A stretch of 48,766 nucleotides of DNA from an uncultured Bacteriovoracaceae bacterium (GTDB lineage Bacteria; Bdellovibrionota; Bacteriovoracia; Bacteriovoracales; Bacteriovoracaceae), in the NCBI GenBank assembly GCA_950054155.1, contig CATLOT010000030.1:1-48766 (forward strand). The letters run 5' to 3'. Positions 17,177-34,283 of this stretch are shown piece by piece. Made by a program: the position numbers and the translations under genes. The notes beneath the pieces were generated by a model. The model did not search any database and had not been told where the DNA came from. It saw nothing but the letters and a program-made list of their open reading frames with translations. Position 1 is the stretch's first letter; each line of letters begins with the position of its first letter.

Positions 17177-17260
17177 TTTGAAACAGCCCCACCATTTCAT
17201 AGATGGCCCTGAACCTCAGTGGCATAACCCCTTTCAACATCAAAACAAATGAGGTCAAAA

Positions 17261-20200
17261 ATGAAATCAAAGAAACTTCTTCCCTTAGTTATTGCCACCT
17301 CCCTTCTAGGATCATGTGGCTCAAAACAAAATCAAACAGACACAACAGGCTCACTCTTTAACCAAGAGGCAACCACGGAAAATGAGGCGAGAGTTCGCTA
17401 CTCTCAAGATATTTTAAGTCCGGCCCTCTTTCCTCAAGACCGCCAGGTTCTTGCTCTTAAAGCGGAGCGCTTAAGTGTTCTCGATAAAGAATTCTTTGAA
17501 GTCATGACCGTGAGAGATCCTGAAATCACTCAGCATAATGAAGTTCACTATAAAAATGGTACTCGCCATATCACGATTGAAGGCAAGAGAATTCTCCTCG
17601 ACTCTCTCGATCAGCAACACCTCGTCAAACTTCTCAACGGGCAAAGAGATATAGCAAAAGTAACAATTAATTGTGAGCGCCTTGATATTGAAACCCCAGT
17701 CGTTATCCCCGGCGCAGACCTTGAGATCAATGCCCAAGAACTCGTTCTTACTCAAAACGGCAGTATCGACCTGACTCCTCACTCTAATCTCCAAAGGGCT
17801 CCCCAATTTGAAGAGGGTGCCCAGGGAGCAAAGGGAAGCACCCTCACCCTAAATATCTCAAACCTTCAAGCAGTCCCACGGACAACTCCTCTCTTTATAG
17901 TGAATGGAGCAAATGGCCAGCCGGCTGGACTTGGCCAAGCGGGCTCTGACGGTAATTCTCTTCCCGACCTTGGAGGTGGAGTTATTAGAGAGGAAAGCGT
18001 TTCGGCCATTGCTTGCTCAGGGACTATACCAAAGTCTATGCAAGGTTGCTCAGAAGCAGTAACCATTAGAGGAAGTGGTTCTGTCCCTTCAAAGGGTGAA
18101 GATGCTCGCCAAGGGGGAAAACCAGGCCTTCCCGGAGACGGTGGTGTGATTAGAACCACGATCCCCCTCGCCTATAGCTCCTATGAAATTAAACCCGGTC
18201 TACCGGGAACACCAGCTCCTCTTTATAAGGGCGGAAAACCTGGACTTCCCAACCCCTATTACATCATTACTTCAAAGAGAAAATCTCACGCCCACTATGT
18301 TTCACCAGGTCTCGATGCCGCTTCCCCCATCTTACCTAAGGATATTGGTAACTTTGGCCACATAGAAATAATAAAAGAAGGAAAATGGCTGACGCCAGCT
18401 TTCCTTAAGTACACAAGTAAGTATGCTCGCCATCTCCACAAAGTAAATTCCATCGAGGAAGCAAAAGTCCTCACTGAAAAAGTTGTGGCTAAATGTGTGG
18501 ATGCTCAAAAGACTCTTACGACCCAAGAAACTCTTCTCTGTGCAGAAACGACGAAGTCGCTCACCCCCCTTCTTTCTAATCTCGATTACTATGGCAAGAA
18601 GGCTTCATGGATCCCCTCATTTTCCGTAGAGGCGAATTATCGCCTCTTTCAAGATGAACTGGAGCGTAGCTTTAGAACTCTCTTCCTCACCTATTGGACC
18701 CAGAAAGAAACCCTGAGCATAGAACAAAGAAATGAGGCGCTTAACAGACAAAGTGACCTTCTCACGAAGACAATTGCTCGCAAGGAAAAGGAATTTAATG
18801 AACTTAATAATTCCATCCCTCAGCTAAACACTGAAATAGCTAATTTAAAAAAAGAGGAATTCTTCTTTGAGAAAGAAGTTCATCGCATTGAAAGAGAAAT
18901 CCTTGCTTCAGCGCGCTCTAATGTTAGAGAGCGATCCCGGATCCCTCTCTACAAGAAGGCCCTCAAAACAGTGGCTGCACTTTCACGTGTCATTCCTGCA
19001 GGTCAACCAAGCCTTGGTGCTGCGGCGACCACAATAGAGACGATTGTTGAGAGTTTTGAAAGTGACGAACCCCTCAAGAATATATTTGAAAAATTACCAG
19101 CTCAATTAAGTTCACTCACTCCGGCAAAAGTTCAATCCTCATTTGATAACTGGAAAAAAGTTAAACAGAGTATCGACTACAATGAATATAAAAGAGTCTT
19201 CTCTTTAACACCTGAGAATTCTCAACTTAATTCTTCAGAGATAAAGAAAGAAAAGAATCTCTATATTGAGAGACTTAAGGATTTCACCAGTCCCATAGCA
19301 AAAGAAGCTCTTAATCAACTTAAGCTCTATAAGAGACAACAGGTTTCTAAAGCCGATATTGAGAAAGAGGTTCTGAATATTAAAAAAGCTCATCCTCTCT
19401 TTAAGAAACTTTCAGGTGATCTTTTAAAGCTTGTTAATAAACGCCAAAGAGTCGCTGAGCAACTTACTGATGTCCATAATAGATTAAACGATATCACTTC
19501 AACTCTTCAAAGTTCCTTTCTCCAAATGGCAGCTCTTAGTGAGGCAACAGCTCAGTTAAGTACTGTTCGAGATCATGATTTAAATAAGACTCTCAAAGAG
19601 ATTGAGGAAGAACAACTTGAAAGGCTTGATTACTATTACTACCTCTTTCAAAAAGCCTATAGCTATAGAATGCTTCGTCCCTTCCCAGGGCTTATAACCA
19701 CGAGAGAAACGATTGAGAAGATTAAGAAACTTGCCTCCCAGTCAGAAGAGGGCGAACTCAGTCTTGAGGAACTCTTAAGTTTAAAAGAAGTTTACACCGC
19801 ACAAATCAGCCGTGTGATCGAGGAGATGATCAACGATTTTGATCTTCAGTACCGAAATAGCAAAGTCTTTAAGCTGAGTGAAGAGCAGATCGAAGCCCTC
19901 AATGATGGTCATGAGATCACTCTCGATCTCACTCTTCCTCGCTACTTTGGTCATTTAAAGAATGAAGAGAACCTGAGAATCAATGGCATTAAAGTTCTTG
20001 AGATGAACCAAAGAAACTCGAATGATAGTGAATCAAAGCTTCTTTTTTCAACAACGGGAGAAAGCCTCATGAAGAAAAACGGCCTAACATACTTCTTTAG
20101 CTTGGGACAAAAACCTTTTTTCTGGGGTGCAAAGGCCCAAAGCTCGATGGGATCTAATCTTGAGCAAATTAGACCAAGTCCCAATAACCAGTCTTTACTA

Positions 20201-20359
20201 AGAAGTTTTCTTTCAAGCGCACAGGATGGGCTGCTCTTTTCTAGACCTGGTGCTCTTACCCATTTAAAGGTTAAATTCAGCCATTTTCAAAAAAAGGAAA
20301 ATGCTCCAAAGCTCGATGCAGTCGCCTTTGAGATCGACTACGATTACAGTCTGATTTAG
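17261..20359 (+). CDS. Giant lipoprotein with Gly-rich collagen-like segment and coiled coils
   Basis: The ATG at 17261, 6 nt after GAGG, gives a 1032-residue protein with a lipoprotein signal (lipobox LLGSC, cysteine near residue 19). Residues of about 180-340 are Gly/Pro-rich with scattered G-x-y runs such as GAQGAKGS, GGKPGLPGDGG and GLPGTPAP, too irregular for a true collagen helix. Then come helical, Glu/Lys-rich stretches with coiled-coil character (for example EFNELNNSIPQLNTEIANLK), and a C-terminal globular part of about 150 residues. No catalytic domain is recognised. It is probably a surface or periplasmic structural lipoprotein. A hairpin follows the stop and abuts the next gene. 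Confidence 0.8.
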   Translation: MKSKKLLPLVIATSLLGSCGSKQNQTDTTGSLFNQEATTENEARVRYSQDILSPALFPQDRQVLALKAERLSVLDKEFFEVMTVRDPEITQHNEVHYKNGTRHITIEGKRILLDSLDQQHLVKLLNGQRDIAKVTINCERLDIETPVVIPGADLEINAQELVLTQNGSIDLTPHSNLQRAPQFEEGAQGAKGSTLTLNISNLQAVPRTTPLFIVNGANGQPAGLGQAGSDGNSLPDLGGGVIREESVSAIACSGTIPKSMQGCSEAVTIRGSGSVPSKGEDARQGGKPGLPGDGGVIRTTIPLAYSSYEIKPGLPGTPAPLYKGGKPGLPNPYYIITSKRKSHAHYVSPGLDAASPILPKDIGNFGHIEIIKEGKWLTPAFLKYTSKYARHLHKVNSIEEAKVLTEKVVAKCVDAQKTLTTQETLLCAETTKSLTPLLSNLDYYGKKASWIPSFSVEANYRLFQDELERSFRTLFLTYWTQKETLSIEQRNEALNRQSDLLTKTIARKEKEFNELNNSIPQLNTEIANLKKEEFFFEKEVHRIEREILASARSNVRERSRIPLYKKALKTVAALSRVIPAGQPSLGAAATTIETIVESFESDEPLKNIFEKLPAQLSSLTPAKVQSSFDNWKKVKQSIDYNEYKRVFSLTPENSQLNSSEIKKEKNLYIERLKDFTSPIAKEALNQLKLYKRQQVSKADIEKEVLNIKKAHPLFKKLSGDLLKLVNKRQRVAEQLTDVHNRLNDITSTLQSSFLQMAALSEATAQLSTVRDHDLNKTLKEIEEEQLERLDYYYYLFQKAYSYRMLRPFPGLITTRETIEKIKKLASQSEEGELSLEELLSLKEVYTAQISRVIEEMINDFDLQYRNSKVFKLSEEQIEALNDGHEITLDLTLPRYFGHLKNEENLRINGIKVLEMNQRNSNDSESKLLFSTTGESLMKKNGLTYFFSLGQKPFFWGAKAQSSMGSNLEQIRPSPNNQSLLRSFLSSAQDGLLFSRPGALTHLKVKFSHFQKKENAPKLDAVAFEIDYDYSLI

Positions 20360-20432: not shown

Positions 20433-21395
20433 ATGAAAACAACAAAAACAAAACTCACTCTATTCTTAGTTTACTCTGTCCTTGCGTTCGCCGGTACTTC
20501 CTGTGTCCAAGATGATGATCCCTGTGTGACAGCGGATTCATCTGTGGAAAAATCAGATAGTCTCGACACCGACGCAAAGTGTTCTGACGGCGGCACCGAT
20601 CCAGACGATAGTACTGATCCAGATGATGGAGCAGATCCTGTTGATCCAGATCCAACCGATCCCGTAGATCCGACTGACCCGGATCCAGTAGATCCACCCT
20701 CTAACCCCAATGATGGAATTCATGATCCCGTGTCTCTTAACAGACCATGGAACAAAGACTTCACGACAATTGTCATTGATGCCTATGAAGGAAATGGCAT
20801 CGACTGGGATCTCATGGCAACTGATCGAAAAGTTGCAGGTGTGATCCACCGCTCAAGTATTGGCCTTCGTGTCGATAAGAAGTACAAAGAAAGAAAAGCA
20901 ATTGCTAAATCTCGCGGCTACCTCTGGGGTGCTTATCACCTTGGCTACCGTGGAAACACCATTGAGCAAGCTGAACTCTTTCTTGATCTCATCGATGATG
21001 AAGACGACACTCTTATGATCCTTGATCTTGAGGACACGAATAACAGTCGCTTTATGAGTATTTCAGAAGCTGTTACCTTTATGGAATATGTCTATGAAAA
21101 GACAGGCCGTATTCCGGTTGTCTATGCCAACCACTCGACAACGGTTAAGCTCAATTCACTTGTAAAGAATAACCCTCTCTTTCAACAATCTCGCCTTTGG
21201 TACGCAAGATTTAAGTCTAATGTCACTGATTACCCTCAAGGTATTTGGCCTAATTACTTCCTCTGGCAATTCTCTAGTGAGATCAATTGCTCAAGAACCG
21301 GCACTTGCCTTTACAATGTTCCAGGAACTCGTTTCGATATGGATGTGAATGTCTATTACGGAACCCGCGCAGACCTCGAACAAAACTGGTACTAA
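20433..21395 (+). CDS. GH25 family lysozyme-like lipoprotein
   Basis: A 320-residue lipoprotein with signal peptide and lipobox A-G-T-S-C (C24). An Asp/Pro/Thr-rich spacer (about 52-95, DP-type repeats) follows, then a C-terminal glycoside hydrolase family 25 domain (about 110-320). GH25 muramidases cut the MurNAc-GlcNAc bond of peptidoglycan. The expected acidic residues are seen as D116 (VIDAYEG) and the DxE pair D198/E200 (LDLEDTN). WGAYHL, VVYANHST and FLWQFSS are further family-like stretches. The spacer suggests surface display away from the membrane. No Shine-Dalgarno precedes the ATG, which touches a hairpin. A cell-wall role in growth or in attack on other bacteria is inference. Confidence 0.85.
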   Translation: MKTTKTKLTLFLVYSVLAFAGTSCVQDDDPCVTADSSVEKSDSLDTDAKCSDGGTDPDDSTDPDDGADPVDPDPTDPVDPTDPDPVDPPSNPNDGIHDPVSLNRPWNKDFTTIVIDAYEGNGIDWDLMATDRKVAGVIHRSSIGLRVDKKYKERKAIAKSRGYLWGAYHLGYRGNTIEQAELFLDLIDDEDDTLMILDLEDTNNSRFMSISEAVTFMEYVYEKTGRIPVVYANHSTTVKLNSLVKNNPLFQQSRLWYARFKSNVTDYPQGIWPNYFLWQFSSEINCSRTGTCLYNVPGTRFDMDVNVYYGTRADLEQNWY

Positions 21396-21401
21396 TAAAA
21401 A

Positions 21402-21433
21402 AACCCTACTTAGTTTTTCAACTGAGTAGGGTT
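21402..21433. terminator. Bidirectional terminator between the GH25 gene and the small acidic protein gene
   Basis: A 13-bp stem (21402-21414 with 21421-21433, one G-U type pair) with a 6-nt loop. It is followed on the plus strand by a T-rich stretch and preceded by an A-run that gives a T-run on the minus strand. The two flanking genes converge on it. Confidence 0.8.
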
Positions 21434-21489
21434 CTTCGATTTTCCATAGTCCATCCTGACAGCGGAAATTGAATATTAATTTATTCTCT

Positions 21490-24597: not shown

Positions 24598-25227
24598 CTA
24601 GCTGCGAAGAAGTTCGTCAGCCTCTTTAGCAAGTTTCTGCTCGTCAGTAAGAGGTTGATTTTCCTTAGCTTCTTCACCTTCAGCTGTTTCACCAGCTTCT
24701 TTAGCAGCTGCGTCAGCTTCTGCTTTAGCAGCTTTCTTCTTCGCTGCAGCTTCAGCTTTCTTCTTAAGCTCTTCAGCTTGCTTAGGATCCATCTCTACCT
24801 TTACGCCAAACTCAGCTTCAACGCCGTTGAAAAGCTTTGCTTTAACAGTGTAAGAACCAACCGCTTTGATAGGGTTGTCTACAGAGAGAACTCTTTTTTC
24901 AACTTCAATGCCTTTGTCAGCAAGAATCTTAGAAAGTTCAGTTGTTGTAACTGTTCCGAAAAGACGACCGTTTGAACCAACTTTCTTGATAAGATCAAGA
25001 TTGAGTCCATTGAGTTGCTTAGCAACTGCCTCAGCAGCTGACTTCTCTTCAGATACTTTCTTAGCAAGCATCTTATTATAGTGGTTCATCTGAGCCTTGT
25101 TAGAATCATCAGCAAGAACCGCTTTGTTATTTGGAATAAGGAAGTTTCTTGCGTGACCCGCAGAAACATTCACAACCTCACCAACATTTCCTAGTGAAGC
25201 TACCTTTTCAGTAAGAATAACCTTCAT
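24598..25227 (-). CDS. rplI: 50S ribosomal protein bL9 with C-terminal extension
   Basis: The first ~150 residues are bL9, a two-domain protein bound at the base of the L1 stalk: MKVILTEKVASLGNVGEVV, the NFLIPNNKA turn, a long connecting helix and a C-terminal domain with GSNGRLFGTVT. The protein is 209 residues, about 60 longer than usual. The extension starts as an Ala/Lys-rich helix and becomes acidic and Gln/Glu-rich (for example QPLTDEQKLAKEADELL). AAGGAGAT before the ATG supports the start. It follows the DUF2232 gene by 11 nt. Confidence 0.95.
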   Translation of the reverse strand: MKVILTEKVASLGNVGEVVNVSAGHARNFLIPNNKAVLADDSNKAQMNHYNKMLAKKVSEEKSAAEAVAKQLNGLNLDLIKKVGSNGRLFGTVTTTELSKILADKGIEVEKRVLSVDNPIKAVGSYTVKAKLFNGVEAEFGVKVEMDPKQAEELKKKAEAAAKKKAAKAEADAAAKEAGETAEGEEAKENQPLTDEQKLAKEADELLRS

Positions 25228-25238
25228 ATCGTATCTCC

Positions 25239-26297
25239 TTAAAAATTTTGTTCATCATTCTTTTTGTTAAAAAACCTGCGAAAATCGACCCACGTATCAA
25301 GCACCCCAACAAGGGCGAGAATTTGGTAGGCCATAAGACAGGCGAAAAAAATCGCCATCGTTCTTAAGAAACCAAAGAAATGCCAATAAGTAAGAAGCTC
25401 GCTTAAAATCCCAAATCCTTGAAAGAAGTAGAACACACCAAAGGCCATCAAACCGTTAAGTCCAATAACTTCAGCCCATGTTCCAAGAACTTCATAAGCA
25501 TGACCGACACAAAGAGCAAGAATACCCATAAGTGGCCAAACCAATGGAAATGGCATTTTAAGACCTGTCAGAGTTTTCACATCATAGGGATACTCATGAA
25601 ATGGCTTCCACAGTGGGGCCATTCTCAAGGTCACAAATGTTCCAACCCAAAAGCTAAGCATAACAACAACAAAAATAAATCCAGTTCCGTAATTTAAGAC
25701 AGGATCAACAACCAAACTAGGCTCTTTCATCACATCTTCAAGTTGGCGTAACTGCTCACCAGCAGCACCAACAGCGTTTACGAGACTCTCATGATATTGA
25801 GTCGCTGTTTTCTGAACATAAGGAGTCAGGATCCCGCGAAGGCCTCCTTCCCTTTGGAAGTTCAGTGTTAGAATCAATCCCATCATGACAAGAAAGACCG
25901 ACGCCCCATTAATGACAATCCCCTTAAGAGGATGATCTTTAGCACGCACGGTTCTTGAGATCAGGTAACCATAGATAAGAGCAAGAGGAAAAGTTCCAAG
26001 TGCACTTCCTTGATTAAATTGAATCTGAACCAGTAAGAAAGCGATAACGGTCCCCACGACTCCCATCATGAATGTCTTCATTTTTCCATAGAGAAGAAAG
26101 CTCATGGTGAAAGGAATAGAGGCAAAGAGCGCAAAAGGCTCAAGACTTGAAAATAAGAATGCAAGAACCCCAAGAAAGGCTAGCTTACTTGTATTCAACT
26201 GAGGAATCATCATCGCTCTAAGCTCTGACTCACCTTCGGGATTGAATCCCTTGGGCGCCTCATCTGAATGGTTGTTCTTATCTTCGTTATTCATCAT
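25239..26297 (-). CDS. DUF2232 family (YybS-like) membrane protein
   Basis: A 352-residue protein with about eight membrane segments after a polar N-terminal 35 residues. Its position between the bS18 and bL9 coding regions and its topology match DUF2232/YybS-type proteins, which occur in this neighbourhood in many bacteria. Function is unknown. The central loop (about 150-190) is helical and probably extracytoplasmic. The start has no good Shine-Dalgarno (ATG at 26297 or 26294). It is about 70 nt after the ribosomal fusion gene and 11 nt before rplI, clearly in the same operon. Confidence 0.75.
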   Translation of the reverse strand: MMNNEDKNNHSDEAPKGFNPEGESELRAMMIPQLNTSKLAFLGVLAFLFSSLEPFALFASIPFTMSFLLYGKMKTFMMGVVGTVIAFLLVQIQFNQGSALGTFPLALIYGYLISRTVRAKDHPLKGIVINGASVFLVMMGLILTLNFQREGGLRGILTPYVQKTATQYHESLVNAVGAAGEQLRQLEDVMKEPSLVVDPVLNYGTGFIFVVVMLSFWVGTFVTLRMAPLWKPFHEYPYDVKTLTGLKMPFPLVWPLMGILALCVGHAYEVLGTWAEVIGLNGLMAFGVFYFFQGFGILSELLTYWHFFGFLRTMAIFFACLMAYQILALVGVLDTWVDFRRFFNKKNDEQNF

Positions 26298-26365: not shown

Positions 26366-26989
26366 TTAAGCGCGAACTTCAGCTGTTCTGTTAGAAACGT
26401 AGCTTGCAACACCGATTTGACGAGCTCTTTTAATAGCAGTCGTTGCAAATCTTTGGTGCTTACGGCTTACACCTGTAATACGAGCTGGAGAAATTTTTCC
26501 AAACTCATTGATAAGCCATGTAAATGTCGCAGGATCTTTCCAGTTCGCTGTAACGTTATTTGCTTTGAAGTAACAAGATTTACGACGAGCAAATTTCTTA
26601 GGATTGTCAGACTCTTCATCACCTTCTTTCTCTGTAGCAGAACCTTTGTAAGTCTTAGAGAAAGGAGTTTTGTAAGCCTTAACAACAGCTTCACGGTCTT
26701 CATCTTCACCAAGAGCGATGAACATGTGACGAAGGTGAAAGTCGCTAATTTTAAGACGACGGATAAGTTCTTTGTTGTTTTCCGTGTTTGCCTTAAAGAT
26801 AAAATAAACAAAGTGACCTGCAGGTGTACCTTCTGTTGTAGGTTGTGCAAGGGTCATTTTTCCCCACTCATCTTCGATGAATACTTCACCGTCGTGAGCT
26901 TTTACTACTTCGTGAACCATTGCTTTAAGAGCAGCAACATCATTTTCAGTAGCTTCTGGTTTCGCCACTAGGGCCAACTCATAGATCAT
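26366..26989 (-). CDS. Fused ribosomal proteins bS6 and bS18
   Basis: One continuous 207-residue frame encodes both proteins. Residues 1-110 are bS6 (MIYELALVAKPEATENDVAA, then DEWGKMTLAQP, LRHMFIALGED). Residues about 111-129 are a charged linker (SATEKEGDEESDNP). Residues about 130-207 are bS18 (KKFARRKSCYFKANNVTANW, ISPARITGVSRKHQRFATTA, IKRARQIG). No in-frame ATG, GTG or TTG lies in the linker, so bS18 has no ordinary start of its own. The two proteins are direct contacts on the 30S platform, so a tethered pair is structurally plausible. AGGAGG 5 nt before the ATG at 26989 fixes the start; the frame is open 14 codons upstream but lacks a site. No ssb gene lies between, unlike in many bacteria. 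Confidence 0.95.
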   Translation of the reverse strand: MIYELALVAKPEATENDVAALKAMVHEVVKAHDGEVFIEDEWGKMTLAQPTTEGTPAGHFVYFIFKANTENNKELIRRLKISDFHLRHMFIALGEDEDREAVVKAYKTPFSKTYKGSATEKEGDEESDNPKKFARRKSCYFKANNVTANWKDPATFTWLINEFGKISPARITGVSRKHQRFATTAIKRARQIGVASYVSNRTAEVRA

Positions 26990-27001
26990 AAAAACCTCCT
27001 G

Positions 27002-27066
27002 GACTAAACGGCTAAAGGGCCCCATGCCCAATAGCGGGGTCTAGTGAATGTCAAAGTGCCGAAGTC
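27002..27066 (-). promoter_or_regulatory. Structured leader upstream of the bS6-bS18 gene
   Basis: On the minus strand GACTTCGGC (27066-27058) can pair with GCCGTTTAGTC (27012-27002) around an inner GC-rich hairpin (27041-27036 with 27023-27018). It ends just before the AGGAGG. Leaders bound by the S6:S18 complex are known in bacteria, so this is a candidate autoregulatory site. If the promoter at 27063-27091 is the only one, the outer 5' arm would not be transcribed. Confidence 0.35.
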
Positions 27067-28260: not shown

Positions 28261-31146
28261 TTAATAAACGAGAGGGACTGTTTCGAGGGTCACTTCCCCC
28301 TGTCCTTTACGACAAAGCATCATGTAGTGAAAAGTACCATCAATCTTTTCGGGATTGAGGTAGACACAGAGATTTGGAATATCCACTGAAAAGCGAAGGG
28401 GGCGAATAAATCCTTCCTCCGTTTGGGCCATCGTGTAGAGACGATTGCCAAAGATCAAAGTGGAGTTAATAAATAATCCTGGTAAAGTGTCGCCCTCTTT
28501 CTTTAAGAGTATGGGGCTTAAGGTTTCAGAAAACTGAACACCCGGAAAAGAACTTTCTCTATTGATACGAAGACGTCCTTGTTCACCATTCTTCCCATAA
28601 GAACGGAGGTAGTAACGTGTTTCAATAAGTCTTGTCTTATTCTCATCATTGAAGGCACTGATAGAATTAAAGATGGGATCACTCCAGTTTTTTGTATCAA
28701 TAACAAGGGCTTCTCCTCTTTTCGTTTGCGGATTCCAAACATAGGAGCGAACCTGATCTCTCTTGAGGGCAGCAAGAAATTCAACATTTTCAGTCACTTC
28801 ACCAAAGTTCTCTCCACCAACACTTAGGAGTTCGCGTGTATTATTCCCAGCGAGAAGTCTCTCCGGAAAGAAAACCCTTTCAAAACTTAACTGGCCATTA
28901 ACAAAAGTATAGAGATAGTAGTCACGAGCAAATTCCTCACCGACAGAAACAAGACCACGGATGAGACCTAGTGCTCTATCTTTTTGACTCTGAGGAAAGG
29001 CTTCATCAAAGCTTACACTTTGCCACTCTTCAATAAAGAATTGCATTCTAAACGTATTGATGGCCTCAAGAGAGTTCACAACTCTTAAACGCATTTCACC
29101 ATTTTCCAAAGGCTCAAGAAAATACTGATGTTGGGCAATTGCCGTCTCGGGTACACGCTCAAGAATATCATCTGTATTATCCTCTTCAGGAAGACGGTAA
29201 GTCATTTTAAAGGTCGGAACAAGAAGGCTCCCTCCTTTAAAAGGAATGGAAATAAAAGCCGTTTCGCCAAGTTCATCATATTCAAGGGGAAAATTCTTAT
29301 AATTAAGAAGAGGAAAGAGAAATTTCTCCGTTTTATAATCTCCAGAGTCTTGTCCCAAAAGATAATTAAAAACGAGGCTCTTTTGATCTTCACTAATACC
29401 AAAGACAAGAAAATCAAGTTTTCCATCATCATTAAAATCTGCAAAGGAAACATTAGAGACTTCATGAAACTTTTCCATCTCCAGATTAAGTCTTCCCCAC
29501 TTCCCTTGTTTTCGCAAAAGAAAGGATAGAGTTGTCTTCTCTTCTGTTTGAAGACTAGGAACTTGAGCGTGGTATAGGGGAGCATTCGTTTCCTCAGAAG
29601 AAAAGCGCACCTTCTTCACGCGACTCACCTTACGAGCGCCCTCAATAAAGGTCAGTTCCGTGTCTTTGAAGCCTTCGATAGCCGAGACCTCATCAGCTCC
29701 CTCTCGCCCAAGGTCGCGAGAAAAGATAAGAGTTGTTTGGGTCACAGAGCTAAAGTCTGAAGACTTTAGTGCTACTGTCATAAGAAAATTACTGTCCTTA
29801 TTGAGATCAAGGAGCTTCCCTTTTATGAGAACACTTCTCTTTTGTCCCTCTTTCAAATCAACACTCTGTTCAGGAGCTTCAATAACAATATCACTGCGAT
29901 TAAAAGTCACCGAAACCTGGAGATCTTTAAAATCACCCATCAGCGATTCGATAGGCAGACTAAAGAAGAAACTTCCATCACGGCTTTTATAATTGAGATC
30001 AAGAAGCTCTTTAAAGTCTGGACTCGCAAAGTTCTTAGGCGCTGAGATCAGAGCCTTTTTCATGTCGACTAATCCATATTTTGAAAACTTCCCTTCAAAA
30101 ATACTTTCCTCACGATCACGACTTGAGCTAAAGAGCCTCGCCATGACTTCACGGATCGGCATTTGGGGATCAATTAATTTCAAGCTAGCAGCGATCCCTG
30201 CGATATAAGGAGAGGCCTGACTCGTTCCATTCTTCGTTTCATAGCCACGAATTCTTAGAATTCTTGATTCTACCGAGTCCTGAGGATAGGTTGAAACGAT
30301 AAACTCACCCGGTGCGAGAATATCAACCTTCCCTCCGTAATTTGAAAACTCTGTCACTGCGCCTGTATTATCAACAGCTCCAACACAAATGACTTTATCA
30401 ACGGTACAAGGGTATGTTGGCACTTGTTTATTATTATTTCCTGCAGCTGCGATAACGACGACGTTTCTCTGTGCCGCTAACGCGAGGGCCCTTTGCATTC
30501 GTGGCGTTTGCACAAGCTTCGGCCAACCAATAGACATATTAATTACATGAGCTCCCCGTTGAATGGCGTAAGCAATTCCATCGGCAAAGAGGTCCGTAAC
30601 GTAACGCTGATTATAGACAAAGCCAGAGATCTCATCGGAGAGGACTTTGACAGGAAGAATCTTTATACGCTCATCTGTTATTCCAGCAATCCCCTGTTTA
30701 TTTTGGGCAGTAGCTGCAATGATACCAGCGACGTGAGTTCCGTGGCCCATATCATCAGTAAGATCGAGATTTCGCTTTAAAATATTTATACCACTACAAG
30801 GCTTCGTTTTCGCATCTTCTTCTTTGGGGCATAGTTTCTTATCAAAGAATATTCTGTCCTTGATTTCCGGATGATTAACATCCAGGCCACTATCGAGAAC
30901 GGCAACAACAATTTCTCTATCGGCAGGAATATCGGGGGGTATGGATTTAAAATCCACATAATTAATATCCCTTCCTTTTATACCGACGATTTGGTCATAG
31001 GTAAGGTCACCACTACGGCGAGAAATCGTTTGCCCACTATTAGAGAGACCCCATTGTTTTTCAAAAAGAGTATCATTAAAGTCTTGTGCTTGAGTTCCTT
31101 GCCACAGTCCCGCGAGCAGCGAAAGGGGTAAGATTAAATTCTTCAT
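28261..31146 (-). CDS. Secreted subtilisin-like serine protease (S8) with large C-terminal region
   Basis: A 961-residue exported protease. After the signal peptide (MKNLILPLSLLAGLWQGTQA) comes a peptidase S8 domain (about 75-360). Its triad is D85 (AVLDSGLD), H135 (GHGTHVAG) and S309 (GTSQASP), with the oxyanion Asn in AAGNNNK (N237). There is no obvious I9 propeptide; only about 55 residues precede the domain. The remaining 600 residues are beta-rich and include an FG-GAP/VCBS-like repeat (SFADFNDDGKLDFLVFG). Its ATG overlaps the TAA of the upstream 1045-residue gene (TAATG), so translation of the pair is coupled. GGGAGAG precedes the start. It probably acts outside the cell or in the periplasm. 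Confidence 0.92.
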   Translation of the reverse strand: MKNLILPLSLLAGLWQGTQAQDFNDTLFEKQWGLSNSGQTISRRSGDLTYDQIVGIKGRDINYVDFKSIPPDIPADREIVVAVLDSGLDVNHPEIKDRIFFDKKLCPKEEDAKTKPCSGINILKRNLDLTDDMGHGTHVAGIIAATAQNKQGIAGITDERIKILPVKVLSDEISGFVYNQRYVTDLFADGIAYAIQRGAHVINMSIGWPKLVQTPRMQRALALAAQRNVVVIAAAGNNNKQVPTYPCTVDKVICVGAVDNTGAVTEFSNYGGKVDILAPGEFIVSTYPQDSVESRILRIRGYETKNGTSQASPYIAGIAASLKLIDPQMPIREVMARLFSSSRDREESIFEGKFSKYGLVDMKKALISAPKNFASPDFKELLDLNYKSRDGSFFFSLPIESLMGDFKDLQVSVTFNRSDIVIEAPEQSVDLKEGQKRSVLIKGKLLDLNKDSNFLMTVALKSSDFSSVTQTTLIFSRDLGREGADEVSAIEGFKDTELTFIEGARKVSRVKKVRFSSEETNAPLYHAQVPSLQTEEKTTLSFLLRKQGKWGRLNLEMEKFHEVSNVSFADFNDDGKLDFLVFGISEDQKSLVFNYLLGQDSGDYKTEKFLFPLLNYKNFPLEYDELGETAFISIPFKGGSLLVPTFKMTYRLPEEDNTDDILERVPETAIAQHQYFLEPLENGEMRLRVVNSLEAINTFRMQFFIEEWQSVSFDEAFPQSQKDRALGLIRGLVSVGEEFARDYYLYTFVNGQLSFERVFFPERLLAGNNTRELLSVGGENFGEVTENVEFLAALKRDQVRSYVWNPQTKRGEALVIDTKNWSDPIFNSISAFNDENKTRLIETRYYLRSYGKNGEQGRLRINRESSFPGVQFSETLSPILLKKEGDTLPGLFINSTLIFGNRLYTMAQTEEGFIRPLRFSVDIPNLCVYLNPEKIDGTFHYMMLCRKGQGEVTLETVPLVY

Positions 31147-34100
31147 TATAAACTCTCCCTTATCCAAGACCCATTGAGTTCGCCACCTTGAATTCCGATA
31201 ATATCTCTTAAACGGTCAAGGGGACCATTCCAGTACTTACTGCGGACACGGCCAATAGTATTAGCCCGAATGGGAGCATTTAGAATTTCAGACTCTTTTC
31301 TGAATCCATTAATCGCCCCATGAACAAAAACATTTTCAACACCAACAATTTTTAAAAAGTCGTTAAACTCGAGATCCTTAACCATCTTCTTGGCCAAGTC
31401 GAGGGCACATTTTGATTTCTTCTTTGTACCTTTAGTTAATTTTGAGCACTCCCTCACCTTATCCATCAGACTCCCAAGGTTGCCACATTCAATGAGCGTG
31501 CGTGCTGTACGGATAACGCGATTTCGCCTTGAATTTCGACGACATTCATTCCATCGCTCCCTACCATAACGGCGCCCAAGATCTTCTAAGGTCTTCTGAG
31601 TCACGTTTTCAATATTAGAAATCCCTTTTTCGTAGATATTAGTACTCACACTAATTTCAAAGAGTTGAAGGGCTTGAGCATCATTCACACTCCCCACATT
31701 AAAAAGTGTTGTTCCGTACTTTGTGTTGAGCTCATCAATATAGCGCTGAAGTTTCTTCTTGCTTGCAGACCATCCCTCTCTCTTATCGGTAAGACCAATA
31801 AAGCGGTCCTTCAATTCACTTTTATTTTTTCTAGCTTCAAAGCGAGCACTCAGTGTTTCACTCACTCCAAAGATACTTTGCCCTGGATTTTGAAAACGAT
31901 TCACATCCAATTGAGGAGTGATAGGAAGGTCCTTAGAGATGTCTTTGAGGTAATAGTTTATTACGTCATAGACAAAGCTCTGATAGTTAATCCCAGATTG
32001 AGACTGACTTGTCAGGCTTACAAACTCATTACGTTGCTGCCCTGGAGTGGTAAGCACAATATCATTGTCCCCCTTGAGGTACTTTGCCTTCCACACCAAA
32101 AAAGAGAACTTCGTCGATTTATCAAGAAAGTCTCCTTCGACAATATAGGGTTTCTCTCTCACCTCAAGAAGTTCACTTGACCCCTCTTCAATAAGACTGC
32201 TCAATGCAATGGCATTAGAAAAGAGATCTGGGTTCTCGCTAACCTCGCCGTTAATATTAACCTGATGAAACCTTACTTTGTACTTCCCCTTAGTCCGCGA
32301 AGTATCAACTTTTACCACTGGAATATAGTGATCGATCCCTGCATTCAGACTAAGAGTATAGGTTCTTCCTTTATCTTCATAAACATGAATAGTACTGGGG
32401 TCCTTTCTATAGAGGTGTAGTCTTCTCACAACAGCGCCTTGGACACCCCCACCGAGGCTCACCCTTGTTTCCATCATATTAAGGCTACCATTTCCAAAGA
32501 CTCTTGGAGTAAGTCTATCAGTAATAAGAAGTGATTCGCCGACTCCCAATGTTTCGTTAATATCTGAAATAAATCCTTCAATCGCCTTTAGCCTTGGATC
32601 AACACCATCAGCATCGGGCTCACTATCTTGATTAGGGAGGTCCCCTAACTGAGAGAGAGTCTTTCTAAGGTCCCTCTTTAAAAGTGGGACCATGAGATTA
32701 CGATAAGGCTCTTTAAACGAAGCCTTTAGGGTTTTAACCGGCTTAAGGTGAGTATAAGTTCTAACAGCACTCACGGTTCCTGAAACACTTGCAACTGGCC
32801 ATGAAGGTAAGTTTTCAATCCCCATAATGCCACCAAGAGTAAGAGAAACTCCCACAGTATCGGCCAATTGAACCAAATTATCTGTCCCTAAGTAATTGCC
32901 AACGACAATATCACGATTGAGGATGAGCCCTCCGTTAACGACGGGACTAAACCAAGTCCCCACGCCAAATTCTTTAAATTCACCCGTTTCAACAAAGTGC
33001 TCAAGTCCTTCCTCAAACTGATCTTTGATAAACTCAAACTTTGCTTCAGTAGGATCAAAAACACTGAGTTTCTCATTAACGAGACTCATTAAATTAGTGA
33101 GAACGGAACTTTGAATTTTAGAAAAAACAAAGTACTCAAAATCTTTGAACGGCGATTCAGGTTGGCCATGAGCAAAGCGGCTGGCATAGCCATCCCAGTC
33201 CTCTTTAAGAAGACGACCTGATTCCACTTCTCCAGCGATATTAATATTTGTTTCAAAGGAAATACTCTCGGCATCCACTTCTAAAAGAGAGAGAAGAGAA
33301 TTTCTTCGACTTATGAGCTTTTCAATGAGAATTGCTTCAACAGGCTTAGGAAAGCCAGAGGCCTCGACCACTTCTTTCCAATCATCACGATTGAGCTTAG
33401 CTAAACGACGAGCAGCCCACCGTGCGTCCTCAATCGCAGTGTTCATATTGGCGTAAGTAAAGTGCGGCAGCACCACGCTTTCATTATCGACAAGACCCAC
33501 ATTCCAAGGAAGCTTATTAACAGACTCTCCAAGGTTGACCACAGCGTAAGGAATAAGGAGGGAGCGCAAGGTTCGACTAACAAGCCGTCTTTGAGGAACC
33601 CCCATCGCTACATTGTAATGGTCTGTTTCTTGAGGCATAAAAGCAACAACATCATTAAATGTTAGGGTCAGTTGCTCATCCGTTAATTCTTTATGATCAA
33701 AACCTAACCAGCGTGAAGGCGCTCCATAAGTAGCTTCGGGTAGTTCTCGAGATAGAAATTGATCTCTTTGTTCAATATTGTCGAATGTTACTTTTAACGA
33801 CTTTAAATACTTCATTGGAGCGATCTGATAACCCAATTTTCTTAAGAGGTTTCTTCTGAGTAATGTTGTATGAAGAGTCTTTTCCAGCAGAATCGTAAAC
33901 ACTCGATCACGACCTTCCTCTGGAAGCACGTTAAATCTCATGATCCCTTGATTTGAGGAAATTGACCCTTTAAAGAGATATTCTTTCGATTCATCAATGG
34001 GGATTTCATCCCAGGCGGGATTGAGCACATTTTCGATACGGTTTTTCCACGTTACTGACTCCATAGGGTCGAGCAAGGAAAGATCCACTTTTTCATTTTG

Positions 34101-34283
34101 TTGAAGAAACCATGCATCTTCTGCGGTAAGGATATTTCCTTCAAAAATAAGATCATTTGAAGGCTGGCGAATAGAGGCCAAAGGAATTCTCTCTTCTTGG
34201 GAGTAGAGTGACCTCATCCCTGAAAAGAGAGCTAAAATGAGTGAAAAAAACAAAAAGATTTTTCTTCTTTTTAAAGTTCCCAA
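31146..34283 (-). CDS. Large exported protein of unknown function, coupled to the subtilase
   Basis: A 1045-residue protein starting with TTG, preceded by AAGGAT, with a signal peptide (FLFFSLILALFSG core; likely cleavage near residues 29-30). I recognise no known domain. The first 300 residues are mixed alpha/beta. The middle (about 430-700) is beta-rich with Gly patterns like NGGLILNRDIVVG and SLGGGVQGAVVRR, and the C-terminal 150 residues are basic and helical with several cysteines (NECRRNSRRN, IECGNLG, VRECSKL, KSKCALD). It ends in TAATG shared with the protease, so the two are made together, possibly as enzyme and partner, chaperone, inhibitor or substrate. None of these can be decided from sequence. 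Confidence 0.85.
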   Translation of the reverse strand: MGTLKRRKIFLFFSLILALFSGMRSLYSQEERIPLASIRQPSNDLIFEGNILTAEDAWFLQQNEKVDLSLLDPMESVTWKNRIENVLNPAWDEIPIDESKEYLFKGSISSNQGIMRFNVLPEEGRDRVFTILLEKTLHTTLLRRNLLRKLGYQIAPMKYLKSLKVTFDNIEQRDQFLSRELPEATYGAPSRWLGFDHKELTDEQLTLTFNDVVAFMPQETDHYNVAMGVPQRRLVSRTLRSLLIPYAVVNLGESVNKLPWNVGLVDNESVVLPHFTYANMNTAIEDARWAARRLAKLNRDDWKEVVEASGFPKPVEAILIEKLISRRNSLLSLLEVDAESISFETNINIAGEVESGRLLKEDWDGYASRFAHGQPESPFKDFEYFVFSKIQSSVLTNLMSLVNEKLSVFDPTEAKFEFIKDQFEEGLEHFVETGEFKEFGVGTWFSPVVNGGLILNRDIVVGNYLGTDNLVQLADTVGVSLTLGGIMGIENLPSWPVASVSGTVSAVRTYTHLKPVKTLKASFKEPYRNLMVPLLKRDLRKTLSQLGDLPNQDSEPDADGVDPRLKAIEGFISDINETLGVGESLLITDRLTPRVFGNGSLNMMETRVSLGGGVQGAVVRRLHLYRKDPSTIHVYEDKGRTYTLSLNAGIDHYIPVVKVDTSRTKGKYKVRFHQVNINGEVSENPDLFSNAIALSSLIEEGSSELLEVREKPYIVEGDFLDKSTKFSFLVWKAKYLKGDNDIVLTTPGQQRNEFVSLTSQSQSGINYQSFVYDVINYYLKDISKDLPITPQLDVNRFQNPGQSIFGVSETLSARFEARKNKSELKDRFIGLTDKREGWSASKKKLQRYIDELNTKYGTTLFNVGSVNDAQALQLFEISVSTNIYEKGISNIENVTQKTLEDLGRRYGRERWNECRRNSRRNRVIRTARTLIECGNLGSLMDKVRECSKLTKGTKKKSKCALDLAKKMVKDLEFNDFLKIVGVENVFVHGAINGFRKESEILNAPIRANTIGRVRSKYWNGPLDRLRDIIGIQGGELNGSWIRESL

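Follow-up and report, generated by a model that had tools for sequence, protein, structure and literature searches.

Nearly all bacteria have the ribosomal proteins bS6 and bS18, which form a heterodimer in assembly of the 30S subunit and, in addition, repress their own operon. Do the two ever need to act apart? A natural and stable fusion of both tests this question, and one is encoded in the 48,766-nt contig analyzed here (the window), which comes from an uncultured member of the Bacteriovoracia, a class of mostly predatory bacteria.

The fused rpsF-rpsR gene occupies positions 26366..26989 of the minus strand as one open frame of 207 codons plus a TAA, running from an ATG (26989-26987) to the stop (26368-26366), with Pfam S6 and S18 profiles both above cut-off in its 207-aa product. 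A Shine-Dalgarno sequence, AGGAGG (26995..27000, minus strand), lies 5 nt upstream of the ATG. The bS6 part (about residues 1-109; 26663..26989, minus strand) matches Ribosomal_S6 (PF01250) over residues 4-92 (60.6 bits, 1.7e-16, profile positions 2-89 of 90) and aligns, as a model, to Escherichia coli bS6. It is followed by a linker of some 23 residues (about residues 110-132, FSKTYKGSATEKEGDEESDNPKK; 26594..26662, minus strand) and by the bS18 part (about residues 133-207; 26369..26593, minus strand), which matches Ribosomal_S18 (PF01084) over residues 146-194 (57.9 bits, 1.1e-15, profile positions 2-50 of 52) and passes the S18 equivalog TIGR00165 over residues 134-200 (60.2 bits against a cut-off of 38.75). 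The encoded frame is thus a genuine, complete bS6, a linker, and a complete bS18. A reading made earlier from the sequence only had proposed such a one-frame fusion, and its complete domains and 207 codons stand; the gene is now placed on the minus strand, as a stop interrupts the 26366-26989 stretch when it is read on the plus strand. On the NCBI S6 equivalog TIGR00166, the fusion scores 37.5 bits, under the cut-off of 42.9, which is a likely reason that annotation would miss it. Such a fusion can stay hidden: the gene may carry an S18 name only, with S6 recorded as missing.

The assembly that includes the window consists of 61 contigs, and an assembly or sequencing error might have joined two genes in this contig or a separate rpsR might have been missed. 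A whole-genome search (3.52 Mb, 99.91% complete) returns one S6 match and one S18 match, both in the fused frame; the second rpsR that the sequence-only reading wanted sought is absent, and the fused copy is the sole S18. S18 matches occur in 118 of 129 Bacteriovoracia genomes, one apiece, and the 11 genomes with no match are all less than 90% complete. As such, the fused genomes of the class apparently have no separate copy of either protein.

The search for other genomes with an rpsF-rpsR fusion was equally productive. All six genomes of the window's genus carry it (84-91% identity), and in 112 of the 118 Bacteriovoracia genomes with an S18 match the S18 frame fits a fusion: it is 203-252 aa long except in two genomes, G014 and G140, where a contig edge truncates it. 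These two truncated frames read continuously from S6 across the linker to S18. We read the fused frame directly in 78 of 80 named loci, in every member but one (L029, described below) of a set of representatives, and in additional loci. Bacteriovoracaceae, Halobacteriovoraceae, and Bacteriovoracia all appear among the titles of the named loci. Two of the fused records, Bacteriovorax sp. DB6_IX (L078) and Halobacteriovorax marinus MAAO01000006 (L104), have titles that do not call them MAGs. Genomes of the class range from 1.6 to 5.6 Mb. Outside the Bacteriovoracia fusion family, none of the S18 matches listed for 369 genomes of the phylum lies in a frame longer than 155 aa. An identical fusion across dozens of independent assemblies and genera, a single S18 per genome, and divergence across the linker that is rich in synonymous changes already contradict an erroneous join, since every assembly would need the same error, and we give that explanation a negligible probability. 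A missed base between the two domains, the artefact that might have undone the original observation, is ruled out in the same way: the fusion recurs class-wide, and the linker never loses frame.

Two separate genes are found in five Bacteriovoracia genomes (G007, G025, G031, G034, and G098), where about 14 to 60 nt separate rpsF from the rpsR that follows it; rpsF and rpsR also adjoin in some related families. S18 of the split genomes has a long N-terminal extension that ends in a motif like DKDRRMFSRKKSCWF, whose M corresponds to the usual S18 start, and the DxEKDRR part of this extension is retained in the fused proteins. A further exception is genome G032 (Bacteriovoracales APA_bin_12; L113, 2998-3591; L029, G032:C61:11570-12163), whose linker is interrupted by an in-frame TAA (EEDI*KDEKNKRNFPRRKSC). 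From that TAA to the S18 core there is no ATG, GTG, or TTG; the TAA may be a base error of the assembly, a site of readthrough, or a real break. Taken together, the five split genomes and the one linker TAA indicate that the covalent tie is not indispensable.

In a phylogeny of ten proteins (4029 columns), the split genome G034 branches first (88/96), and the split clade of G025, G031, and G098 groups next to the window's fused clade instead of falling outside the fused genomes as a whole (95/94). Read literally, this topology calls for a single fusion plus a single fission, or else for two fusions. A tree that keeps every fused genome in one clade is not rejected (p-AU 0.078), and we therefore do not claim a fission: the origin may lie in one fusion with a fission or in two fusions.

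Does the joined frame also allow S18 to be made by itself? The window linker has no in-frame ATG, GTG, or TTG, and codons 104 to about 147 are also free of CTG, ATT, ATC, and ATA. The earlier claim that S18 has no separate start holds in the window's lineage but does not extend to the other fused clade, many members of which keep an ATG at the old S18 start. Altogether, 31 of 76 fused genes, mostly from that clade, retain this in-frame ATG (KDKKMHSKRKSC); a few of them have an AAGGA-like sequence about 10 nt upstream, and most have no recognisable Shine-Dalgarno. In the remaining 45 genes, K, R, L, Q, I, T, A, or G takes the place of the old start residue. The retained ATGs, and the few with an AAGGA-like sequence, would fit an arrangement in which translation of S18 also, or mainly, begins within the frame and the upstream join is incidental. 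With ordinary starts absent from the window linker, the old start replaced in 45 of 76 genes, and most retained ATGs devoid of a recognisable Shine-Dalgarno, we judge this arrangement very improbable, although separate production of some S18 is conceivable in the other fused clade.

The linker itself appears to be maintained as protein. Among relatives, it spans 16-31 residues in 16 distinct lengths (mean net charge, -1.8), and the frame is always kept. Within the genus, linker codons show 147 synonymous versus 89 non-synonymous pairwise differences, a ratio about equal to that of the S6 part (587:363), which points to protein-level constraint on the linker; such a codon pattern, together with the frame, would be unexpected in a spacer that is not translated.

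An AlphaFold2 model of the fusion has a mean pLDDT of 79.3 and a pTM of 0.74, confidence being lowest for linker residues 122-128 and for the C-terminus. Over residues 1-111, the model aligns with E. coli bS6 chains (Z 15.4-15.7, rmsd 1.4-1.5), and the S6 part is accordingly modeled with the bS6 fold. The structural comparison covers the S6 part, so the S18 fold is assigned from sequence profiles, which match the S18 part to solved bS18 chains (2.7e-17). Residues K60 and R63 of E. coli S18 touch 16S rRNA at C719 and C720 and also contact the two cytosines of the rpsF leader (PMC4647458); the equivalent K187 and R190 are invariant in 29 of 29 fused proteins. The interface between the two proteins has been altered: E. 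coli S6 Y48 (numbering of PMC4647458) is replaced by Q in all 29, and S18 Y23 is replaced by an invariant W (W150), while K24 is kept. The roughly 30 residues between the ordered parts should be ample to span two touching proteins.

The linker is also the place where a cut might fall. As the least confident part of the model, it could be a cleavage site, and the gene would then encode a polyprotein: a single chain would ensure equal dosage and then be cut in the flexible linker, leaving ribosomes with separate bS6 and bS18. Variable linker length and composition, the negative mean charge, and the use of separate proteins in some Bacteriovoracia genomes are all compatible with such processing. 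Against it, the linkers share no visible conserved cleavage motif, near-constant residues being confined to K104 and P109 in the bS6 tail or to the basic start of bS18, nor was a protease identified; we regard processing as unlikely. We infer instead, as the likely state of affairs, that one uncut chain sits in the 30S platform as a tied bS6:bS18 heterodimer and that this chain probably represses its own mRNA.

Repression of this kind would act through the leader, where a hairpin ends at the start codon and overlaps the Shine-Dalgarno (26987..27042, minus strand; covariance model R1, 24.4 bits, full length). The window leader's own base pairs are imperfect. The arrangement common to fused genes is a CUC GCUC...GGGC hairpin, an unpaired stretch ending in CC, and then AGGAGG. 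The sequence of the upper stem is highly variable yet paired (165 of 208 inner positions, versus a shuffled mean of 90 and maximum of 113). In the alignment of 25 leaders, a chosen subset of sequences on which we proposed the structure, 97.1% of cells are paired, both partners change in five pairs, and covariation scores 0.361 versus 0.159 when shuffled (0 of 500 shuffles as high). The outer three pairs contain the GAG of the Shine-Dalgarno; they rarely vary and so provide little evidence by themselves. Model R1 detects the leader at nearly all tested fused loci, including the window, and at the loci of split G034 and of G032. The split clade of G025, G031, and G098 (L143, L144, and L145) is set apart from split G034 and from nearly all fused genes in that R1 detects no leader at its split genes. 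G007 was left out of this comparison because its contig begins too near the gene.

The Rfam model of the E. coli RpsF_leader (RF02893) scores 110 bits on its E. coli control and has no match in the window (E up to 5) or at nine related loci (E up to 1); conversely, R1 has no meaningful match on the E. coli rpsF leader, such that neither covariance model finds the other's leader. The two leaders are nonetheless alike in layout: the E. coli element (PMC4647458, PMC10931766) also has a helix holding the Shine-Dalgarno region, a hairpin with a GC..GGC base, and an unpaired 3′ stretch ending in CC beside the Shine-Dalgarno. By analogy with this layout, the leader of the fused genes may work like RpsF_leader, and we do not file it as a member. 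The known S6:S18 feedback, which the sequence-only reading invoked, is therefore plausible through a conserved leader RNA, but this RNA is not recognised as the Rfam RpsF_leader.

The preferred series of events, then, would run as follows. Neighbouring rpsF and rpsR were presumably joined in frame within the Bacteriovoracia, and the ribosome would make a single chain of ~23 kDa comprising a bS6 fold, a flexible linker, and a bS18 fold, with the linker taking the place of the S6 tail and the S18 N-terminus. This chain would fold as an intramolecular bS6:bS18 heterodimer and bind the 30S platform whole, and bS6 and bS18 would be made 1:1 by construction, with their ratio fixed by the fusion. Surplus fusion would then bind the structured leader beside its own Shine-Dalgarno and probably block translation as a single-chain repressor. 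On a broader scale, we advance with some reserve, at slightly under even odds, the view that a class of free-living or predatory bacteria builds its 30S platform from a permanently tied chain that represses itself via a diverged leader, the tie having been lost or gained more than once.

The fusion removes the free C-terminus of S6 and the free N-terminus of S18. In E. coli, the free bS6 C-terminus is the target of RimK. Strong RimK-family matches are present in 9 of 12 fused genomes tested (that of the window included), in 0 of 3 split genomes, and in 2 of 7 outgroups, a pattern on which we rest nothing; a search for RimI returned GNAT matches everywhere and was uninformative. One strong RimK-family ligase (277.9 bits) lies in genome G000 (contig C9:36997-37848), where it persists though the free bS6 C-terminus is gone.

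Elsewhere in the window, the next gene downstream of rpsF-rpsR encodes a DUF2232 membrane protein (25239..26297, minus strand; PF09991, 52.4 bits) and is followed by rplI (24598..25227, minus strand; TIGR00158, 120 bits on residues 1-145 of 209). Its bL9 product has a long, charged C-terminal tail of ~64 alanine- and lysine-rich residues past the profile, and the corresponding frames of G025 and G031 are longer still. Positions 20433-21395 encode a lysozyme-type protein of Glycosyl hydrolase family 25, which starts like a lipoprotein and contains a stretch rich in Asp and Pro, and 28261-31167 encode a Subtilase-family protein of 968 aa. Two proteins of more than 1000 aa (17249-20359 and 31146-34283) have no Pfam match. 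Between convergent genes, a near-perfect inverted repeat (AACCCTACTTAGTTTTTCAACTGAGTAGGGTT, 21389-21446) is probably a terminator usable both ways.

The sequence-only reading knew of no described fusion of S6 and S18, and in agreement with this, we found none in the open-access literature, the domain of our search. The nearest precedent found there comes from Candidatus Sulcia muelleri DMIN, in which L10-L12 and S21-LepB fusions were verified by sequencing (PMC2859065); upon checking, the L10-L12 case is not one of S6-S18. The resemblance lies in the fusion of a ribosomal protein gene, and the difference lies in the distribution: the Sulcia fusions belong to one reduced endosymbiont and are missing from the other sharpshooter Sulcia genome (PMC2859065), in contrast with the class-wide fusion described here. 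With respect to the separate bS6/bS18 heterodimer, the fusion keeps both domains complete, matches the S6 fold, and retains the RNA-contacting S18 residues, but does so as one chain, with neither of the two joined termini free and with remodelled interface residues. As such, it offers a ready single-chain tool for studies of assembly and regulation.
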